Below, piece by piece: positions 1,552 through 32,458 of a stretch of DNA of 32,649 nucleotides (position 1 is its first letter; the number at the start of each line of letters is the position of its first letter). This stretch comes from Syncephalis fuscata (lineage: Eukaryota; Zoopagomycota; Zoopagomycetes; Zoopagales; Piptocephalidaceae): the NCBI GenBank assembly GCA_025786725.1, contig JAHLTZ010000080.1, positions 1 to 32,649 on the forward strand, in the 5' to 3' direction. Below the pieces are notes generated by a model. The model did no database searches. It saw only the letters and a list, made by a program, of their open reading frames with translations, and had not been told where the DNA came from. A program made the position numbers and the translations under genes.

Positions 1552-3275
1552 GTAAAACTATTACATTAGTGATGTGACAATAAGTGGCGTATTGAAAGAG
1601 TGCGTTTAGCATAACTAAGTGACAAAATGCAATAAAAAATCAATAAAACTAATTTATTTAATAAATCGTTACTAGAATTATGTACAACTTTACATAAAAT
1701 AGCTCAAAATACATGGTGTTTTGCACAAGTATGCGGATAACATATGTACAACTATTGGCAACTTATAATGTAATTGTGTTGCGGGATGATGCAATGGTAG
1801 TGACGATACGTTAATAAATTTGTAAAAATAGCTGTTTTTTACTGTTTATGGTTTGTATAGTTAAAACACAGCAAAATGATTGCCGGATTCGAGTTCTCCA
1901 TGTTTGGATGTATTGTTTGGTATGACTTATAAAACAATAATTTTTGCGAAAAATGTTGACCAAAAATGCAATTTACGTTATTTTTAATACATCTAGTAAA
2001 TCGTTGCTAATACTACGTATAACTTTACGTAAAATGACGCAGATTGCCTGATATTTTGCACAAGTATGCATATGGCATATAGCTATCTATTGACAAAGCA
2101 TAGTATTGTTGTATTGCGCATTGATGCAATGGTTGCAACAATACACTAGTAAATGTGCAAAAATAGCAGTTTTATGCCGTTCATGGCTTATATAAGCAAA
2201 ATACAACAGAATGGTTGTTAGATTCGGGTTTTCCATGTTTGGATGTATCGTTTGATATAAGATTTAGAACAATGATTTTTGCAAAAAATGTTAGTCAAAA
2301 ATGCAATTTACGTAAAGTCTATTAACAAGAAAATGACCAAGTTTCATAATATTAGAAAATTTAATTTAAGAATGAGTCTATATAAAGTGAATTTAAAGCC
2401 CTCTAAAGTGTTAAAACAAAAATAATAGCAAGTTAATAAAAATAAATGACGATGCACTGTGACAATCTATGTCATTTATACATAAATACAACAAAGGTTT
2501 GTTAATAAACTTTACGTAAATTGCATTTTTGACTAACATTTTTTGCAAAAATCATTGTTCTAAATCTTATATCAAACGATACATCCAAACATGGAAAACC
2601 CGAATCTAACAACCATTCTGTTGTATTTTGCTTATATAAGCCATGAACGGCATAAAACTGCTATTTTTGCACATTCACTAGTGTATTGTTGCAACCATTG
2701 CATCAATGCGCAATACAACAATACTATGCTTTGTCAATAGATAGCTATATGCCATATGCATACTTGTGCAAAATATCAGGCAATCTGCGTCATTTTACGT
2801 AAAGTTATACGTAGTATTAGCAACGATTTACTAGATGTATTAAAAATAACGTAAATTGCATTTTTGGTCAACATTTTTTGCAAAAATTATTGTTTTATAA
2901 GTCATACCAAACAATACATCCAAGCATGGAGAACTCGAATCCGGCAATCATTTTGCTGTGTTTTAACTATACAAACCATAAACAGTAAAAAACAGCTATT
3001 TTTACAAATTTATTAACGTATCGTCACTACCATTGCATCATCCCGCAACACAATTACATTATAAGTTGCCAATAGTTGTACATATGTTATCCGCATACTT
3101 GTGCAAAACACCATGTATTTTGAGCTATTTTATGTAAAGTTGTACATAATTCTAGTAACGATTTATTAAATAAATTAGTTTTATTGATTTTTTATTGCAT
3201 TTTGTCACTTAGTTATGCTAAACGCACTCTTTCAACACGTCACTCATTGTCACATCATTAATGTAGTTATATTAC
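1552..3275. repeat. Large nested palindrome
   Basis: Arms at about 1552-2330 and 2498-3275 (roughly 780 bases each) are near-perfect reverse complements around a 165-base centre. Each arm holds two diverged direct copies of a ~330-base unit (about 1660-1985 and 1994-2320 in the left arm), so the unit order is forward-forward-reverse-reverse. A recurring stretch ends each unit with the AATTTACGT motif. No coding frame is seen. A non-autonomous foldback transposon or a hairpin-forming satellite block are both possible. Confidence 0.88.
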
Positions 3276-14103: not shown

Positions 14104-14310
14104 AGGGCAATTTTGGAAAATACACCGTTTCTCGGTTTTAATTACAGAAATACTCTTTTTTAAATTCTAAAAAACTTTTCCTTTTTTTTTCTTGTTTTAT
14201 AAAATAAATACACCGTTTTTCACTTTTATTTAGAAAAATACATTGTTTTTAAACTTTACCATAACAAATTATTTTTTAAGTTTATTAAATAAATTTAATA
14301 AATAAAATCA
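14104..14310 (+). repeat. Left terminal inverted repeat of the MULE
   Basis: Reverse complement of 16310-16515 with scattered substitutions and small indels. It contains two copies of the short motif AATACACCGTTT. Confidence 0.88.
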
Positions 14311-16254
14311 TTTTTTATTTACCCCACACTTCGTTTTCTTGTAATGGCGTTCACCACAAATTAAACATTCTTTAATAACACGCTTTCTTTTTTTGATAGC
14401 CGTTTCACTAGTAGTTTGTATTTGTTCTTCAATAAAAGTGTTTGTTTCAGCGTTACTAATGCTAGTGTTTACAGAGCATGTTCTTGTATTGTGTCCTTTT
14501 GAGCTACAATTGCGACAAGCATATCGCTGAGAGGCTTCCAAAGCTTCACCACAAGATCTAATTCTTTTAACTTTTGGTCTACCGGCTTTCTTCGTTATTG
14601 TCGGTGGCAAACACGAAATGTCCGCAGTAATTGATTCCATTTCAACCGGACAAATTTCTAGAGCATATACTTTTTTTAGATAATCAATGGTGTAAGATTT
14701 ATCAATAAAATCATCTAATAAGAGCTTAAGATTCTTCAAAAGTATTGCCACATGACTACAAACAAACTTCATCTCTTCCCAGTATCCACATGTGCAGGTT
14801 TTTGCAGTTAAATCTACTGTTCTGACAATACCAGACTTGATATCTTTAACTTGAAATTTGGTATCAGAATAATCGTCAATTATATAATTATTGGCGTCAG
14901 TTAATGGTGATTTATACAACAAATAGCTATTATTAGATAGCAATCCTTGAGCTTGTGAATACTTAATTCTACGCTTATTCAACAAAGTTCCAACTTTGGC
15001 GACAAATCCAGTAAAAAATTGATAATGGGATTTGTTCCGAAGGTCGTTCATCCATGAGTTCAACGACTCTGATGAATTTGAAGTAACGCAATCAAATCTT
15101 GACCATTTAAAAGATGATCTAGCCCAGTTTTTTTGCTGAGTCTATTAGCTTGTTATAAGCTGGCTCATTTAATGACCGTATCACTTTCATTGAATCTAGA
15201 AAATAAATTAGTACTTTGAATGTAATTTAAATAAATATAAATACCATCAAATTCTTTACTAGTTAAAGCTTTCGCAGCTTTCCATATTAAACCATTAAGC
15301 TTTGTTTTAAATTCAGCATTGATGTTTCTTTCGATATGAGCAACACATGCAGAGTGGTGTGCCAAGGGAAATACAGTTTTTATCGAAGACTCTATTCCTT
15401 TATCTCTGTCGCTAATGATGACTTGATCTTTTTCTTTTAATTCAGGTATTGAATCTGATAGATGTTTAAAAAAATAAACCCAGTTGTTTTCATTTTCATG
15501 AGATACTATAGCAACAGCCAAAGGGAAAATATTGTTATTTCCATCTTTAACAACTGCAGTAAGAGCAACACCGCCATAAGAAGATCTTAAATGGCAGCCA
15601 TCAATTACCAGTACTTTACGAGTATACTGGTAAGCTTTAATAGCTGATGAAGGACATAAAAATGCCCTTTCAAAGTTACCAGACTGGTTCTGCGAGAAGT
15701 GCTGAACAGAACCCGGATTAAAATGTTCGAATTTGATAAGGTAATCTTTAATAAATGAAAAAGAATTAATATTGCTGTTAATATCATTCTTTTTCATCGA
15801 ATTAAGGGCGGACCAAGCTTTGTAATAAGAAATATCAACTCCTGTTGAACTATTACAGTTGTTAGTGTATATTAAATAATCAAATATGTACCTACTTTAA
15901 TAGTTTTCTTTGTACATCTTTTGGTTTTACAATTGAGAATGTAGCAACATCATTCGTAATATATTTAGCAATAGACTTAATAGTACCATTACCCGTATTA
16001 TATGGACAGTCATTAAAATGCTCAAGATTGCATTGAACAATCTTTACTAAGCCAGTTTTCTGCTTTCTGGCAGTCAAAACAAACTGACATTTGTTGCTAA
16101 AATGGTCTTCATGAGGGCAAATAAGCTGTAATCTTGTTGAATCACTATTTTTCCTCTTAAAATTGCAACCGTTAACAAGCTTAAACTCGTCAACAGCAAT
16201 CCTCAGTTCTTCAATGCTGTTAAATATAGCTTTTTTAAATAGTTTGGTAGACAT
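14308..16254 (-). CDS. MULE transposase with one frame break
   Basis: Three exons: 16254-15896, 15849-15245 and 15195-14308, giving about 616 residues once one frame break is allowed for. The N-terminal part (about 1-120) is a cysteine/histidine DNA-binding region of the FLYWCH/FAR1-like kind (LICPHEDH, CNLEHFNDCPYN). The central transposase core carries VLVIDGCHLRSSYGG, then ENENNWVYFFKHL, VIISDRDKGIESSI and ACVAHIERNI; acidic residues in the first and third motifs fit the DDE triad. The C-terminus has a SWIM zinc finger (CTCGYWEEMKFVCSH) and a CCHC-like knuckle (CRNCSSKGHNTRTC). The frame slips at the A7 run near 15128-15134, where one A is surplus. The ATG at 16254 was chosen; upstream there is no ATG in frame. 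Confidence 0.9.
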
Positions 16255-16309
16255 TGCGATAGGTTTTTCAAAACGGCGTATCTCGATAAATAAAAGCAAA
16301 GAACAATTT

Positions 16310-16515
16310 ATTTTTATTTATTAAATTTATTATAATAAACTTAAAAAATAATTTATTACAATAAAGTTTAAAACAATGTATTTTTCTAAATAAAAGTGAA
16401 AAGCAGTGTATTTATTTTATAAAACAAGAAAAAAAAAGGAAAATTTTTTTAGAATTTAAAAAAGAGTATTTCTGTAATTAAAACTGCTAAACGGTGTATT
16501 TTTCAAAATTTCCCT
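16310..16515 (-). repeat. Right terminal inverted repeat of the MULE
   Basis: Inverted partner of 14104-14310. The transposase start lies just inside it, so this end probably carries the promoter. Confidence 0.88.
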
Positions 16516-22878: not shown

Positions 22879-24285
22879 GCTGTCGACTTGTTTATTCGTT
22901 TAATAAATGGAGTACCCTTGTGAAGTTGATTTATTTGTGTGCTAATGTTTCGTTAAAATAGCTCGATGCAGCTTGATGTACTTGGCAATAGAGTGGTACA
23001 GCTAACTAGATGCTTGAGTGAATGAATAAACAGCAATCTCTCTTTTGGTAATTAAAATAATCCAGCTAAGCGATGGCTATCAAACACACAATTAGTATTT
23101 ATTTACAGAAATATAACATTACGTGCTATTAACATATAAAGTGGCTATTCATGTTAATTTTTACTCAGTTGTATTGGATACAAAACCTACTAAAGGGCAA
23201 AGGTAATATCCGTTAACTTCCTTATTCTATCATGAATTCAAGAGGTTAGGCCTTTTGGATTCAACAGCATTAGAAAGTAAATGCAAGGCCAGGATCAGGT
23301 TAATACGGCTGTATACAGACGTAACACTTGGCCGGATTTCATTGAAGTTGGAAATGGTGTAAACCTGTTAAAGGATATATGGCAGTGTACACCAATTAGA
23401 CATGTCTACTGTTGTTCCATCCATATGCGCCAAGCAGCTTGTACCCCTAATCATTCTATCTTCTCACGCGAACATTATATTTTTAAATTGACAGCTATTA
23501 AATGACAATTTAATAACGCACTGATGCTTACAATATTTAGTGCAGTATTTTAAAATATAGTATTTGCGTGTATGATATCTGTATTAATTCTTCAGATGTA
23601 ATAAAACTAAGGTGGCAGCGATCATATAAAAATAAATAAATAATAATTGGCGGTTGATGTGCAATAGGCCAGTTGAACTATTACATTGTTTCAAAAATGC
23701 CGCTTTATTCACACGAGCAACAATATCTATTGATTGGATACATTCTATTTTGGTGATATTCTACTGCAGACGAGACACTATGTCCTTTGTTGGCCTTTCT
23801 ATTGCTTAGAACAGCAAATACTATTGGTTATAGGCTAAACATTGTGTGCCCCATTTCTGCATAGTTTAAGACCAACCTGTTTTTATTGGGCTTTTGAATA
23901 TCATCCCAATTTATCCATAATAATTTACATGAGTAGATAGATGATGTTTTGTAAATTGATATTCTAGACAGATTTTAATTGGACAAATGGCCTAAATGCT
24001 ACAGACGAACCACTGCTCTGTTATTATGTGTTTGTTTGAAAATAGCACATGCATGTATTTTCATTGGTGTTAGCATATTTGCATCATGCTTCTATAGATA
24101 GAATCTCGACTGCTCGGTTTAAAGGATTGCAAACTAATTTAAATAGCGCGATGTTGAAGCGTAAATCCAACTTCAGTACAACAACAGCTTTATTCCCCAC
24201 TTTCTACATCCTACTTTTCTATACTCCAATACATATTCTTCTATTTGCTTTTAATAGCTTCTACTACCAAATTAGCATCATCACC
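22879..24285. other. Spacer upstream of the cysteine-repeat gene
   Basis: The 74-codon frame at 23281-23505 has no recognisable content or splice context. The last ~100 bases before 24286 are pyrimidine-rich (CCTACTTTTCTATACTCC), like leaders of strongly expressed fungal genes. Confidence 0.5.
24138..24146 (+). promoter_or_regulatory. TATA-like box TTTAAATAG
   Basis: It lies about 140 bases before the ATG at 24286. A near-identical TTAAATAG lies at a similar distance before the micro-exon gene, which also encodes a secreted protein. AT-richness makes chance occurrence possible. Confidence 0.3.
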
Positions 24286-24891
24286 ATGAAGTTCTCTATT
24301 GCTACCGCTTCTGCTTTGGCCGTGCTCTTCGCAGTTAGCACAACTATGGCGGAAACTAGCTATGCTCCCAAGGGCAATCAATGCATTAAACACACCGATA
24401 ATGGCGGTATTCTTGGCTGCCCTGCCTTCCAACTTCCAAAAGATAAAAAGTGCAAGGTTGTACCTGGTAAATCTGGTGCTGCTTATCCTGATTGCTGTCC
24501 TCGCCCGGTTTGCGATGAACACAAAAAAGAGCCTGAAAGCCCAAAACAATGCATTAAAATCGATAAGAATGGCGGTATTCTTGGCTGCCCTGCCTTCCAA
24601 CTTCCAAAAGATAAAAAGTGCAAGATTGTACCTGGTAAAACCGATGCTGCTTATCCTGATTGCTGTCCTCGCCCGGTTTGCGATGAACACAAAAAAGAGC
24701 CTGAAACCCCAAAACAATGCATTAAAACCGATAAGAATGGCGGTGTTGTTGGCTGCCCTGCCTTCCAACTCCCAAAAGATAAAAAGTGCAAGGTCGTACC
24801 TGGTAAATCCGATGCTGCTTATCCTGATTGCTGTCCTCGCCCGGTTTGCGATGAACACAAAAAAGAGCCTGAAACCCCAAAGAAATACTAG
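24286..24891 (+). CDS. Secreted triple-repeat cysteine-rich protein
   Basis: A single exon of 201 residues. The ATG at 24286 begins a clear signal peptide (MKFSIATASALAVLFAVSTT, cleavage probably after Ala-22); the longer frame starting at 24049 adds only a non-coding-like leader. The mature protein is three near-identical 56-residue repeats starting at residues 32, 88 and 144. Each has six cysteines: QC, GC, KC, the DCC pair and VC, with YPDCCPRPVC near the end. The YPxCCP pattern recalls single-domain von Willebrand factor C proteins, but that family usually has eight cysteines, so the link is tentative. Repeats are joined by hydrophilic DEHKKEPETPK linkers. Coding sequence is markedly less AT-rich than its surroundings, suggesting strong expression. 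AATAAATGG lies about 45 bases past the stop. It could be a cell-wall, adhesive or effector-like protein; function unknown. Confidence 0.9.
   Translation: MKFSIATASALAVLFAVSTTMAETSYAPKGNQCIKHTDNGGILGCPAFQLPKDKKCKVVPGKSGAAYPDCCPRPVCDEHKKEPESPKQCIKIDKNGGILGCPAFQLPKDKKCKIVPGKTDAAYPDCCPRPVCDEHKKEPETPKQCIKTDKNGGVVGCPAFQLPKDKKCKVVPGKSDAAYPDCCPRPVCDEHKKEPETPKKY
24379..24882 (+). repeat. Three tandem 168-base coding repeats
   Basis: Units at 24379-24546, 24547-24714 and 24715-24882 are nearly identical at the DNA level, including silent positions, which indicates recent duplication or ongoing homogenisation. Confidence 0.95.
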
Positions 24892-28824: not shown

Positions 28825-29496
28825 TATAGCAGCAAAGTAACAAAAACAATGAATTTAAACTATTATCGTGTAATGTAAAACTCTAATCAGATTTACTATG
28901 TTTTGATTTGATCATTAAGTTATAGTCCAATGTGAACTGCACGCTCAAATCAGTGCTATTTTAGTTTTACCTATCCATTTATATAGACAATGTAGCTGTA
29001 GACTAGAATTTTAAGGTTTTTCTCTTTTTATCGTACACTATATCTCTGTCAATATAAACACATTGATTATATGTTATAGCCTCTATAAATAGTGTATATT
29101 AGTACACCACTCCCTTCGATCATAAATCAGTATACGGAGCAACTATTATAACGTCCAACAGTATAGCCATACTAACTATACAATGTTCAATAGATACTAT
29201 TTACTGAATATAAACTATAAATAAGCACGAACATAACAATTGGATTACATATAACTAAAATGAAACCATGTGTTTATTACTACAATCTTGCATAGATAAG
29301 TAGGTAACTAAATATATATTTGTTCATAATATAATGGTGTTATTGATTAAAGTAGATAAACTGAGTATTGGATTGAATCTGGTATATGAACGGCTTGAGT
29401 AACAATTGCCAAATGGTCTTAGTTTTTATCAGACGTAAACTATATAGAAACAGCGGTCCAGTCACAATATTAAAGTTAGTATCCTGAAAGACTTGA
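28825..29496. other. Spacer between micro-exon gene and INTS9
   Basis: Lies downstream of the micro-exon gene's stop and upstream of INTS9 on the same strand; it presumably holds a 3' untranslated region and a promoter. The minus-strand sequence just after 29497 is open in another frame for about 55 codons (to about 29345), an alternative 3' coding tail if the terminal phase changed. Confidence 0.45.
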
Positions 29497-31281
29497 TTAT
29501 CTTGAAGCTATAAATACATACAGAGTATTCATATAATTTGCGTATAAGTCAATAAAATACAATACCCCTTACCTCCTATCGATATTGTTATTAAGGACAC
29601 AAAATACATAGCTCATGTTTTAATGTATAGTCGATTAACAAAGAGATCACTCACCATCTAGCAATGCAATTTAGTGAGCACATAAGATACATGGCACATG
29701 TTTAACGTATACTCTAATCAATATACAATGCCACCTACGAACTATCGATAAAGGTTAAGTACACACAATACATAATGTGTAATTAGCGTATAGTTGACTT
29801 ATATAGAATGTCACTTACTATCTAACGGTGTTAATTTATCAAATACATAAAGTGAATAGCGTATATTTAGTGCTTATTCTTTTGATATACAATGCTACTT
29901 ACTCTCTATTTATTAAAGCCATAAAGCACACACAGCGTATAACATATGTTTAGTGAGTAGTTGCTTAATATAAAATGCTGCTTACTGTCTTTTGGTGTTG
30001 AATCATGTACAAATATTGTATAGTATATGGTCAGTAGATAGTTAACTTGTATGCTAGACTACTTACGAGCTATCGATACAATTCATTGAATACACAATAC
30101 ATGACATGTAATTAATATATAATTATTTAATTTATAATGCCACTTACTAACTATTAATAAGTCATTAAACACACGCACAAAATGTATAGCATATGTTTAG
30201 CGCATAGTTGGTTGATGCAAGATTTTTACTTACCATCTATTGATGTTGAATTATTAAGCATATACAGTGTATATCGTGTAATTAGCACACAGCCGGTTAA
30301 TATACAAATGCCACTTACGAGCTATTAATGTTAAACCGTCAAACACGCCAGTTTACAATATGTTTTAACGCATAGTTGATTAATATACAAGTTCACTTAC
30401 GCCCTATCAATATAATTTATTAATAATTCATGATACATAGCATGTAATTAACACATAATTCCTTATTATGTATACCACTTACGAACTATTGATAAAAGTT
30501 ATTAAACATATACAGTACATGGTATGTAAGTAATGTATAACTAATTAATACGTAATTTTACTTACAACCTATTTATATCAAATCATTAGACACGCACAGT
30601 GAGTACGTTTAGTATATAATTATTCAATATGCCAAACCACTTACGCTCTATCAATATAAATTATTAAGCGCAAATCGTGTACAGCATGTATTTAACGTAT
30701 AATTTAATTAGCATACAATGCTACTTACTAGCTGTTAATAAATCATTAAGAGTATAGTGCATAACATACGTTAGCGCATAGCTGCCTAGTATACACTATT
30801 ACTTACAATCTGATAATATTATATTAATTATACGAACAGTGTTTTATTAGCTAAACAACCAATTATTTCCACCGTAATTTACCTCCTATCAATGTAAATT
30901 TAGCATATTAATATCGTCATTGTAATACATTATATATTGCTTAATGGTAAACTTACTTTTATTCAGTGGTACTAATTTACCCATTATTTGGTGGCAATTA
31001 ATCGTCAATTATCACACCAACAATCGTAAGTTTTTAAAACTTACTCTCTGGTTACATGTGTAAGGCATCACGCTGTAAGTATTGGAACAGCAGCCCATAA
31101 TTGCAACTTACTAGCTAGCATTATTATTAATTAGCCATAATGCTAGTAAGTATAGCAGTTTGCACATTTATTATAGTTAAAACATACCATGGCCTAATGG
31201 AGTTGGTTTAGCATCCACCATGGCTGTATTAATCACAAAAGCCACTACAATGGTGCAGACGACGGCAATAGAAGGCTTCAT
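29497..31281 (-). CDS. Micro-exon gene: secreted peptide precursor in 22 exons
   Basis: Exon 1 (31281-31188) starts MKPSIAVVCTIVVAFVINTA, a clean signal peptide, and ends in phase 1. Micro-exons follow: 31114-31112 CTA; 31047-31045 AGA; 30971-30957 (15 bases); 30885-30883 GAG; 30809-30807 ATT; 30731-30729 CTA; 30647-30645 AGC; 30568-30566 GTT; 30485-30483 TTC; 30403-30401 GGC; 30321-30319 CTC; 30236-30234 ATG; 30150-30148 TTA; 30069-30067 CTC; 29988-29986 ACA; 29905-29903 AGA; 29821-29819 ATA; 29741-29739 TTC; 29657-29655 ATG; 29575-29573 GAG. The terminal exon 29507-29497 ends in TAA. Total 177 bases, 58 residues. All 21 introns are 64-83 bases; 15 of 20 micro-exon donors are exactly GTAAGT. 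The predicted mature part is strongly basic, contains AKIPLNKR, DSKR, then FRPHVTHKNIHGASR, so two Lys-Arg sites suit Kex2-type cleavage. Function unknown. The model is read from sequence only; RNA has not been seen. Confidence 0.8.
31026..31044. other. Hairpin covering the donor of micro-exon 2
   Basis: A perfect 19-base inverted repeat (9-base arms, one central base). In the transcript the GTAAGT donor just after the AGA micro-exon can pair with an ACTTAC a few bases downstream, giving a stem of about 7 pairs. Confidence 0.6.
31106..31151. other. Stem-loop enclosing micro-exon 1 and its splice sites
   Basis: 31137-31151 is complementary to 31106-31124 except for a 4-base bulge. In the transcript the intron segment ACTTACTAGCATTAT would pair with the acceptor side and donor side of the CTA micro-exon, leaving the exon itself in the bulge; the loop is 12 bases. 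Confidence 0.6.
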
Positions 31282-32458
31282 GGCGATATTGATTTATAAA
31301 ACAAACAAGTATAATAGACAATAGAGTTTAGTAGTATAAAGTAAGCAATAGGTATTTGGCAGAAAGTAGAGTGTGATAATACTACTACTAGTCGGTTACG
31401 TGTATTGTGTGGCCTATTTAAGTTTATGGTTATTCTAAGATGCCAACATGCCGCATTGTAGGATTATACTAGTGATGCATAATGTGGACCAATAACAACA
31501 CACCCACGTGGGGCTTAAGGCATGCATATACCAATATATCGACAATGTGATAGTATACAGCATAAGTTTGCTTTAATCAGGCCGCGATGAGACAGATAAT
31601 GCGGCAATATCAATAATTCAGTACATGTGTGGTAAGAATGCACCTATTGGTGTGTATTGTGCTGTTGCACGATTCAGCTTTGCGGCGCAAACTGAATCTA
31701 TTGGTTCTACAAAAACGCTGATGCTGCATCGCTATGTCTTTGTTATTCCTTTCGTCAATAATCTCAATATCCTTTATTTCAATGCATTCAAAATATTGCT
31801 TAGCATTAATACGACAACAAATTAACGTATTAAACTTATACTCTTTAAAGCTATTTACTGTCGTGCGCAGACTAGCATGATTTTAACCCATAAGAATATA
31901 CCGATTGATTTACTTATGCATTTAATTTTACATTGCAGCTTGGCTAAGTGGTAAGTAATTTATTGGATTTACAAACGACTTGCATCTAAACATAACATTG
32001 CGCGCATTGTACAGTTGTTGAAATCGGCTGTGCAACAGCGCTACTTGCAATGTAATCCATTATATTATTTTTAATGGTTAAACAATCCATTTTGTCGCTG
32101 ACCCCATTGTATGCTCAGCTATAAAGTAACTTGCATTGGCTAATTACATACAATACAGTATGTAGACACTATGTTACGTGGATCTAGTAGTTTCGGCTAT
32201 ATACTGCTAGTTTTAAACACATAATGATCGCATTGTTGTATTATTAATTTTATTGCACGATATTTCTATTCAAAATCAAATAAAAAGACTAGAATAGATA
32301 ATAAAAGGTAGAACCAAAGAATATCGGGTTGAGCAAACAACTTTCATTGTGTCATGTCTCCAGCAATGGTCATATCGCAGGGCAACAGAACGAAGACAGA
32401 ACTAACATTTTAATGCTAATTGGTTGACTACAGAACACTAAACATTTCTTTTTTTGTT
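31282..32458. other. Spacer with weak plus-strand open frames
   Basis: Divergent spacer between the micro-exon gene and the last gene. Plus-strand frames at 31625-31825 and 31877-31954 are not supported by family motifs. The second begins with an F-box-like IPIDLLMHLILHCSL and is followed by a GTAAGT donor at 31951, with in-frame coding-like codons after a stop, so a decayed or unrecognised small exon is possible. Confidence 0.35.
31414..31422 (-). promoter_or_regulatory. TATA-like box CTTAAATAG
   Basis: About 135 bases upstream of the micro-exon gene's ATG on the same strand, matching the box upstream of the cysteine-repeat gene. Weak evidence in AT-rich DNA. Confidence 0.3.

Follow-up and report, generated by a model that had tools for sequence, protein, structure and literature searches.

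Can a protein-coding gene be composed almost entirely of three-nucleotide exons? The question is raised by a minus-strand locus at positions 29497-31281 of a contig of Syncephalis fuscata (Zoopagomycota, Zoopagales, Piptocephalidaceae). The contig, JAHLTZ010000080.1 (C279 in this study), was analysed over its whole length of 32,649 nt and is called the window; it belongs to the S. fuscata assembly GCA_025786725.1 (28.95 Mb, 299 contigs). According to PMC10386755, Syncephalis are mycoparasites. The first-pass annotation of the window had described a signal-peptide exon followed by a series of tiny exons, nineteen of them single triplets. Its sites, coordinates, spacing and open frame of 58 codons were reproduced to the base when we rebuilt the model, which gave 177 nt of coding sequence (58 codons plus a stop) in a single open frame. 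The joined product was MKPSIAVVCTIVVAFVINTAMVDAKPTPLGHAKIPLNKRDSKRFRPHVTHKNIHGASR, followed by the stop. We consider it very likely that this gene and its relatives are spliced and translated into fast-evolving secreted peptides with every triplet normally included, probably for use against host fungi. The rebuilt gene is listed below from 5' to 3'.

31188-31281, minus strand: exon 1 (94 nt), signal peptide, MKPSIAVVCTIVVAFVINTAMVDAKPTPLGH + G, closing after codon base 1, donor GTATGT
31112-31114, minus strand: 3 nt micro-exon CTA
31045-31047, minus strand: 3 nt micro-exon AGA
30957-30971, minus strand: 15 nt exon, least certain, frame open with or without it
30883-30885, minus strand: 3 nt micro-exon GAG, donor GTAAAT
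30807-30809, minus strand: 3 nt micro-exon ATT
30729-30731, minus strand: 3 nt micro-exon CTA
30645-30647, minus strand: 3 nt micro-exon AGC
30566-30568, minus strand: 3 nt micro-exon GTT
30483-30485, minus strand: 3 nt micro-exon TTC
30401-30403, minus strand: 3 nt micro-exon GGC
30319-30321, minus strand: 3 nt micro-exon CTC
30234-30236, minus strand: 3 nt micro-exon ATG
30148-30150, minus strand: 3 nt micro-exon TTA
30067-30069, minus strand: 3 nt micro-exon CTC
29986-29988, minus strand: 3 nt micro-exon ACA, donor GTAAGC
29903-29905, minus strand: 3 nt micro-exon AGA
29819-29821, minus strand: 3 nt micro-exon ATA
29739-29741, minus strand: 3 nt micro-exon TTC, donor GTAGGT
29655-29657, minus strand: 3 nt micro-exon ATG, donor GTGAGT
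29573-29575, minus strand: 3 nt micro-exon GAG, donor GTAAGG
29497-29507, minus strand: terminal exon, coding part CTTCAAGATAA, with a TAA stop in the frame of exon 1; it departs from the common form of the family
29250-29496, minus strand: 3' untranslated region (UTR), provisional end, alignable among paralogs; AATAAA starts at 29278

The introns between these exons are 64-83 nt long. The 15 nt exon is the least certain part of the model because there is no usual AG immediately 5' of the last triplet of its unit; the frame was still open when it was omitted (162 nt). On the minus strand of the window, the motif AG-N3-GTRRG occurred 18 times within 29400-31300; the rest of the minus strand had it three times and the plus strand a single time. 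An identical set of 18 strict sites was found in a copy of the gene on contig C24 (L039), which showed no substitutions in 1,633 bases aligned with the window gene and six gaps of 1-5 bases. An assembly artefact was rejected on the evidence of this second copy on another contig and of many diverged paralogs.

The earlier description of a single gene was right as to the anatomy of the gene, but the gene proved to be one member of a large family. Searched against the genome, a 1 kb segment of the array matched 141 times, itself and the C24 copy among them; the other matches were 64-82% identical. The exon 1 peptide gave at least 150 matches (the best 150 of 303 candidates were scored). Thirty exon 1 loci were cut out, several of them near copies and two of them the window gene and its C24 copy. 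A donor lay directly 3' of exon 1 in 21 of the 30, and 19 of these 21 had at least three strict micro-exon sites within 1.5 kb; exon 1 ran on as a single open frame in nine of the 30. Across 20 related array regions (123 kb), AG-N3-GTRAGT was found 476 times in sense and 3 times in antisense orientation. Spacings of 1, 2, 4, 5 and 6 bases gave 22, 6, 0, 1 and 3 sense counts, and none of the spacings from 7 to 30 gave more than 8, so that the runner-up to three bases was one base. Genome-wide, the strict pattern AATAGNNNGTAAGT occurred 3,183 times against 28 times for the reversed pattern; with N4 in its place the counts were 54 and 50, i.e. background. As the strict pattern catches 299 of 480 modelled units, the genome can be roughly estimated to hold about 5,000 micro-exons, near-identical contigs included.

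The three-base size was equally clear in a splice-site model of the 20 loci that ignored the reading frame, in which 478 of 480 micro-exons were 3 nt and the other two 2 nt long; when the thresholds were relaxed and 21 loci were modelled, 3 nt exons made up 610 of 614. Modelled genes contained from 5 to about 80 micro-exons. In the frame-blind model the array introns varied in length and occupied all three modulo-3 classes. Their median was 79 nt among those of 105 nt or less, and the arrays had a repeat period of about 83 bp. A unit profile of 516 units, picked by AG-N3-GTRRG, showed acceptors ending mostly in AATAG, conserved stretches across the intron, and triplets with a higher G and C content than the introns; the information in the triplet was 0.05, 0.48 and 0.07 bits at bases 1, 2 and 3. 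Twelve kinds of donor were counted in 610 AG-N3-donor motifs, and 507 of them were GTAAGT.

Ordinary introns of the same genome were available in the window itself, in a Methyltransf_4 gene that we take to be METTL1-like. It has three introns of 62, 60 and 66 nt (donors GTAAGC, GTAAGC and GTAACT), the joined frame is a continuous protein, and one acceptor, TTGATAG, is the same as in array units. The GT-AG signals of array units resemble those of these three introns; elimination of DNA instead of splicing was rejected on this ground. We propose that tandem units of about 83 bp, each made up of a spliceosomal intron of about 80 nt and a 3 nt exon, come after a conserved signal-peptide exon, and that a short terminal exon would finish the last codon and give the stop and the 3' UTR. 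The introns would probably be removed successively by intron definition, each join adding a triplet, because splice sites three bases apart could hardly be occupied simultaneously. By gaining or losing whole units, the arrays would gain or lose single amino acids.

The reading frame is set by exon 1. A signal-peptide-like exon 1 heads the array in 17 of the 20 regions by inspection. In all 17 loci that possess it, exon 1 was 94 nt long and closed after codon base 1; in L064, L072 and L073 it was 97 nt long with the same phase. Because exon 1 ends there, every later codon would be split by an intron between bases 1 and 2, and one unit would correspond to one amino acid. A codon in this frame is made of the last base of one triplet and the first two bases of the next, 80 nt away. 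We counted stops among such neighbour-triplet codons and obtained the expectation by shuffling triplet order within loci. Only one stop was found in 434 codons, compared with 12.6 ± 2.8 expected (20 loci; none of 5,000 shuffles was as low), and one in 556 in a larger set, compared with 19.5 ± 3.5 (21 loci; none of 2,000 shuffles). Controls behaved as expected by chance: pairing each triplet with the next but one gave 21 stops in 514 (18.0 expected), third-neighbour pairing 20 in 478 (16.8 expected), reversed neighbour order 22 in 556 (19.6 expected) and the following phase 58 in 556 (57.4 expected). Among codons with an expectation of at least 2.5, the three most depleted were TGA (0 against 4.5), TAG (0 against 4.6) and TAA (1 against 10.4). 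The lone in-frame stop lies in the longest gene, where three triplets follow it and the usual terminal acceptor is missing. Under another null, in which columns were shuffled independently, the contrast was weak for 516 units (1 stop, 4.6 expected) and clear for 610 units (1 stop, 11.1 expected).

Stop avoidance that is specific to order and frame indicates that adjacent triplets are read jointly, in array order and in the frame of exon 1. All triplets are probably included in the normal case, because the pairs that skipping would create are unprotected against stops. The neighbour-pairing control raises the odds of spliced and translated arrays and of the new architecture discussed below, and makes recursive splicing, combinatorial splicing and decaying relics less likely.

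Combinatorial splicing would mean that triplets are kept or left out in many different sets, a single gene thereby yielding a cloud of peptide variants. All 3 nt exons are symmetric and their skipping preserves the frame, and the micro-exon genes of schistosomes have been described with alternative splicing for diversity (PMC10526429). Against this, joins leaving out one triplet or two showed stops at chance level, as if unseen by selection, and some composed peptides look like a single design, with eight cysteines or one long helix-like stretch. We regard it as unlikely. The arrays might also be relics, formerly coding and now mostly pseudogenes maintained by tandem duplication: exon 1 or the start codon is missing in some copies, and splice sites are weakened or lost in some units. 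Decay is hard to reconcile with one stop in 556 codons, with the prevalence of the GTAAGT donor and with the coherence of the composed peptides, and this explanation appears very improbable.

A non-coding satellite, whose motif AGNNNGTAAGT would be bound by a protein and resemble an exon by accident, would fit the tandem repeats of about 83 bp. It does not account for an array that follows a signal-peptide exon with a phase 1 donor in 17 of 20 regions, for stop avoidance tied to frame and order, or for ends homologous to those of intronless paralogs (see below). Satellite DNA was rejected because of the order- and frame-specific constraint, and we give it practically no credence.

The evolution of the triplets also speaks for coding arrays. 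Within loci, 42 independent pairs of units whose flanks differed by at most 6% were compared, 25 of them from L051 and L052. Triplets differed at 49 of 126 positions (39%) and flanks at 86 of 3,192 (2.7%; Fisher p 1.7e-38); the non-wobble bases N1 and N3 differed at 39 of 84 positions and the wobble base N2 at 10 of 42. Between loci, 24 of 123 triplet positions differed, compared with 45 of 3,116 in the flanks (34 of the 41 pairs were L051/L052). When paralogs were compared position by position, exons differed more than introns in L042/L048 (12 of 45, 27%, against 111 of 1,230, 9%), in L040/L049 (24 of 39, 62%, against 170 of 1,189, 14%) and in L051/L052 (42 of 134, 31%, against 578 of 4,932, 12%), and the direction was the same in further pairs. 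The closest pairs, L046/L047 (exons 0 of 63; introns 23 of 2,019) and L049/L054 (exons 0 of 36; introns 12 of 1,627), show no exon change, but with too few differences for a verdict; entire units separate the members of these pairs, with gaps of 162 and 83 bp.

Two pairs of arrays deserve description. In L051 (C24:471500-479500) and L052 (C24:537000-545000), near-identical introns enclose triplets such as GCA, GCC, GCG, TTG, ACG and CCA. Triplet hypervariability is clearest here, and the changes often alter two or three bases of one triplet together. L040 (C57:474845) and L041 (C57:418566) are inverted array copies 56 kb apart that differ at 0 of 1,191 intron and 1 of 39 exon positions; the second of the two, L041, yielded no exon 1.

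The fast triplets could reflect diversifying selection, or homogenised introns combined with selection that keeps the triplets apart, and both scenarios need the triplets to matter. Triplets that outpace introns are what one would expect if secreted proteins are engaged in an arms race, in this case most likely against host fungi. We infer such a role for the product, which would be secreted and used against the host, because of the signal peptide, the small size, the cysteine patterns, the size of the family and its fast change.

Both ends of the arrays are shared with genes that have no array. The terminal exon starts AG|N(A/C)TAA in 15 of 20 aligned array genes; the terminal region is altered, deleted, unalignable or cut short in L039 (the copy of the window gene), L040, L058, L065 and L066. 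Intronless paralogs have the signal peptide in common with array genes. In five of ten (L014, L017, L018, L031 and L070, with L017 and L018 being near copies), the paralog's own stop aligns with the TAA of the array genes and is followed by the same 3' UTR with its AATAAA signal; the other five stop further downstream. The alignments indicate that the array sits between two homologous ends, in the place where intronless genes encode the mature peptide. The intronless secreted proteins (L014, L017, L019, L028, L031 and L070; P0002-P0016) carry the family signal peptide, and those aligned have the 3' UTR in common. Their mature parts differ widely, being cysteine-rich, proline-rich or helical, i.e. 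common ends with an exchangeable middle.

A search for proteins of the family gave 15 hits, all from S. fuscata, in a database whose coverage of aphids was unchecked. Five of these 15 public proteins (P0006, P0008, P0009, P0010 and P0011) were taken apart. Among GT/GC-AG splicings that allow introns of 40-300 nt, a single one reproduced P0009 (BDF19DRAFT_453770), namely exon 1, CCA, AAG and the third unit read through its donor. This public protein model thus requires two 3 nt exons. P0011 (L069, C289:358300-359100) reads A-Q-N-R where two 3 nt exons predict A-Q-D-R, and is one residue off. P0013 was not found in the one region fetched for it.

The results above bear on recursive splicing, in which the array would be one long intron, AG-NNN-GT would serve as ratchet points, the triplets would be lost and exon 1 would be joined to the terminal exon. 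Known recursive splice sites have AG directly adjoining GT, with nothing retained between. The arrays are alike in that acceptor and donor nearly touch and removal would be stepwise; a few units have two or zero bases between the sites (L058; AGGTAAGT, 13 times), and the join of exon 1 to the terminal exon would likewise be in frame. The S. fuscata triplets, however, behave as coding sequence. Stops are avoided across the introns only in the right order and frame, variation is much higher in the triplets than in their flanks and, within triplets, lowest at the wobble base, and P0009 requires two of the triplets. A direct join would also leave scarcely more than a signal peptide, whereas intronless paralogs have a full mature peptide. 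Recursive loss of the triplets is therefore judged highly unlikely. Splicing, as proposed in the first-pass annotation, and translation gain support from stop avoidance, the constant phase of exon 1 (17 of 17), the register of the terminal stop, the hypervariable triplets and the P0009 model.

The composed peptides look like secreted peptides. From 48 triplets, L066 (C135) gives a peptide with eight cysteines, and 40 triplets in L064 (C2:225326) give one with two C-x3-C pairs; the composed part of L058 (C2:653500-661500, about 80 triplets) has 79 residues, with long helix-like stretches, VEQKLQSSTQLQQEIDSFRPSCSEDIQKLYDQADKLHDELLVKLNKFLNEYIKQYGQLHQQDGKFQQLQNNINKLRAIG, when a 2 nt candidate exon is omitted. 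Cysteine codons, each split across two exons, numbered 27 over all loci compared with 18.8 in order shuffles (P 0.009). When the six loci tested were taken one by one, only L066 was below 0.05. In Pfam, the L066 peptide was without a match and L058 had 12 weak coiled-coil-like matches, all under the cut-off. A search of the S. fuscata genome that included the signal peptide gave two longer matches, on C212 and C90, driven mainly by the signal peptide, and the C90 match carries a different domain, single-domain von Willebrand C (SVWC). This domain is best known from arthropods. In the C90 protein (L060), a signal peptide of the array family is joined to the SVWC domain.

Several observations weigh against spliced and translated arrays. 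Among 5.8 billion proteins searched, the L058 peptide had no homologue (two candidates, neither of them scored). Contiguous homologues of the array-encoded peptides of L058 and L064 were sought in their own genome without a match. In these searches, and in the genome search that included the signal peptide, the L058 query was an early model in which two triplets were missing and the last four residues were in another frame; the L064 query was short by one residue because exon 1 has 97 nt in that gene. The triplets themselves are a stop in one of 610 cases compared with 9.6 expected (column shuffle, 21 loci), a depletion that the proposed frame does not require. The public annotation is mostly without arrays: P0008 is joined, in the exon 1 frame, at the acceptor of the first micro-exon and then reads through, P0006 reads through in the first unit, and P0010 is reproduced by a single 280 nt intron without a micro-exon. 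None of the GT/GC-AG splicings tried on contig C289, or on the near copy on C290, yielded P0011.

The arrays also contain irregular parts. The 15 nt exon of the window gene departs from the three-base rule, as do candidates of 2 nt in L058 and L052, 6 nt in L065 and 12 nt in L055, and several loci contain intervals of about 160-500 nt in which no site was recognised. There is no intact exon 1 in L041 and L057, L045 stops at the end of its contig, and the start codon is lost in L021, L024 and L025, which read ATA (isoleucine) and not ATG. The 2 nt candidates would shift the frame if included.

Comparison with known systems was made by description. The micro-exon genes (MEGs) of schistosomes have 10-20 exons of 6-81 bp (3-81 in the abstract), mostly 15 bp, and introns of 0.1-5 kb (PMC10526429). 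As described there, they resemble the arrays in having a signal peptide first and many short exons, mostly multiples of three, in coding for products that a parasite secretes, or in S. fuscata would secrete, and in being hard to annotate automatically. The arrays, like MEGs, start with a signal peptide but have neither exons of 6-81 bp nor long introns: the micro-exons, of which a gene may hold about 80, nearly all measure 3 nt, and introns of about 80 nt lie in tandem units. The bicycle genes of aphids average about 17 small exons, almost all of which begin at codon position 2, and the microexons of one aphid gene number more than 100 (PMC9168663). They are likewise a large, fast-evolving family of putative effectors with many small exons and a start at codon position 2; a tandem array of intron units, as seen in S. 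fuscata, is not described in the parts of PMC9168663 that deal with them.

Exons of bicycle genes are longer than one codon. Isolated ultra-short exons have been reported as microexons of plants, a 1 nt exon in APC11 of Arabidopsis (PMC4674806, PMC8831610), a 1 nt exon in CYP621A of Fusarium (PMC12940212) and a 20 nt microexon in Xlr2 of Trichoderma, which its authors present as the first functional one from filamentous fungi (PMC11121469). As far as these accounts go, exons of 1-20 nt can be spliced in plants and in fungi. Those cases are one or a few tiny exons in ordinary genes, whereas whole coding regions would consist of them in S. fuscata. Among the top-ranked open-access papers, a literature that leaves subscription papers and preprints mostly outside, no similar gene architecture was found, arrays of microexons and single-codon exons included. 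It seems rather probable that the arrays represent a new architecture, in which proteins grow by units of one intron plus one triplet and codons are added, removed and diversified singly by tandem duplication. With the same degree of confidence, all mature codons would be split by introns, the introns conserved and the exons hypervariable, in a peptide-diversifying effector system with thousands of 3 nt exons in 29 Mb.

The window contains some further features. At 24046-24891 on the plus strand lies a secreted-looking protein with three near-identical SVWC repeats of 168 bp. Adjoining frames at 14308-15896 on the minus strand belong to a Mutator-like element, with a MULE transposase domain and a SWIM zinc finger in Pfam; the frame beside it, 15892-16317, had no Pfam match. 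Positions 2514-3165 hold about two tandem copies of a 335 bp unit with 75% matches.

Three-base exons are considered difficult for the spliceosome to handle, and the papers discussed here report ultra-short exons as isolated cases. If the arrays are spliced as proposed, about 80 consecutive 3 nt exons, in a family with thousands of them genome-wide, would put intron definition and splicing accuracy to a strong natural test, since dozens of exact joins would be needed for each peptide. Gene prediction would then have overlooked many secreted proteins of S. fuscata, and the peptides could evolve residue by residue. If transcripts confirm it, the family would be an extreme form of micro-exon gene in which introns far outweigh coding DNA.

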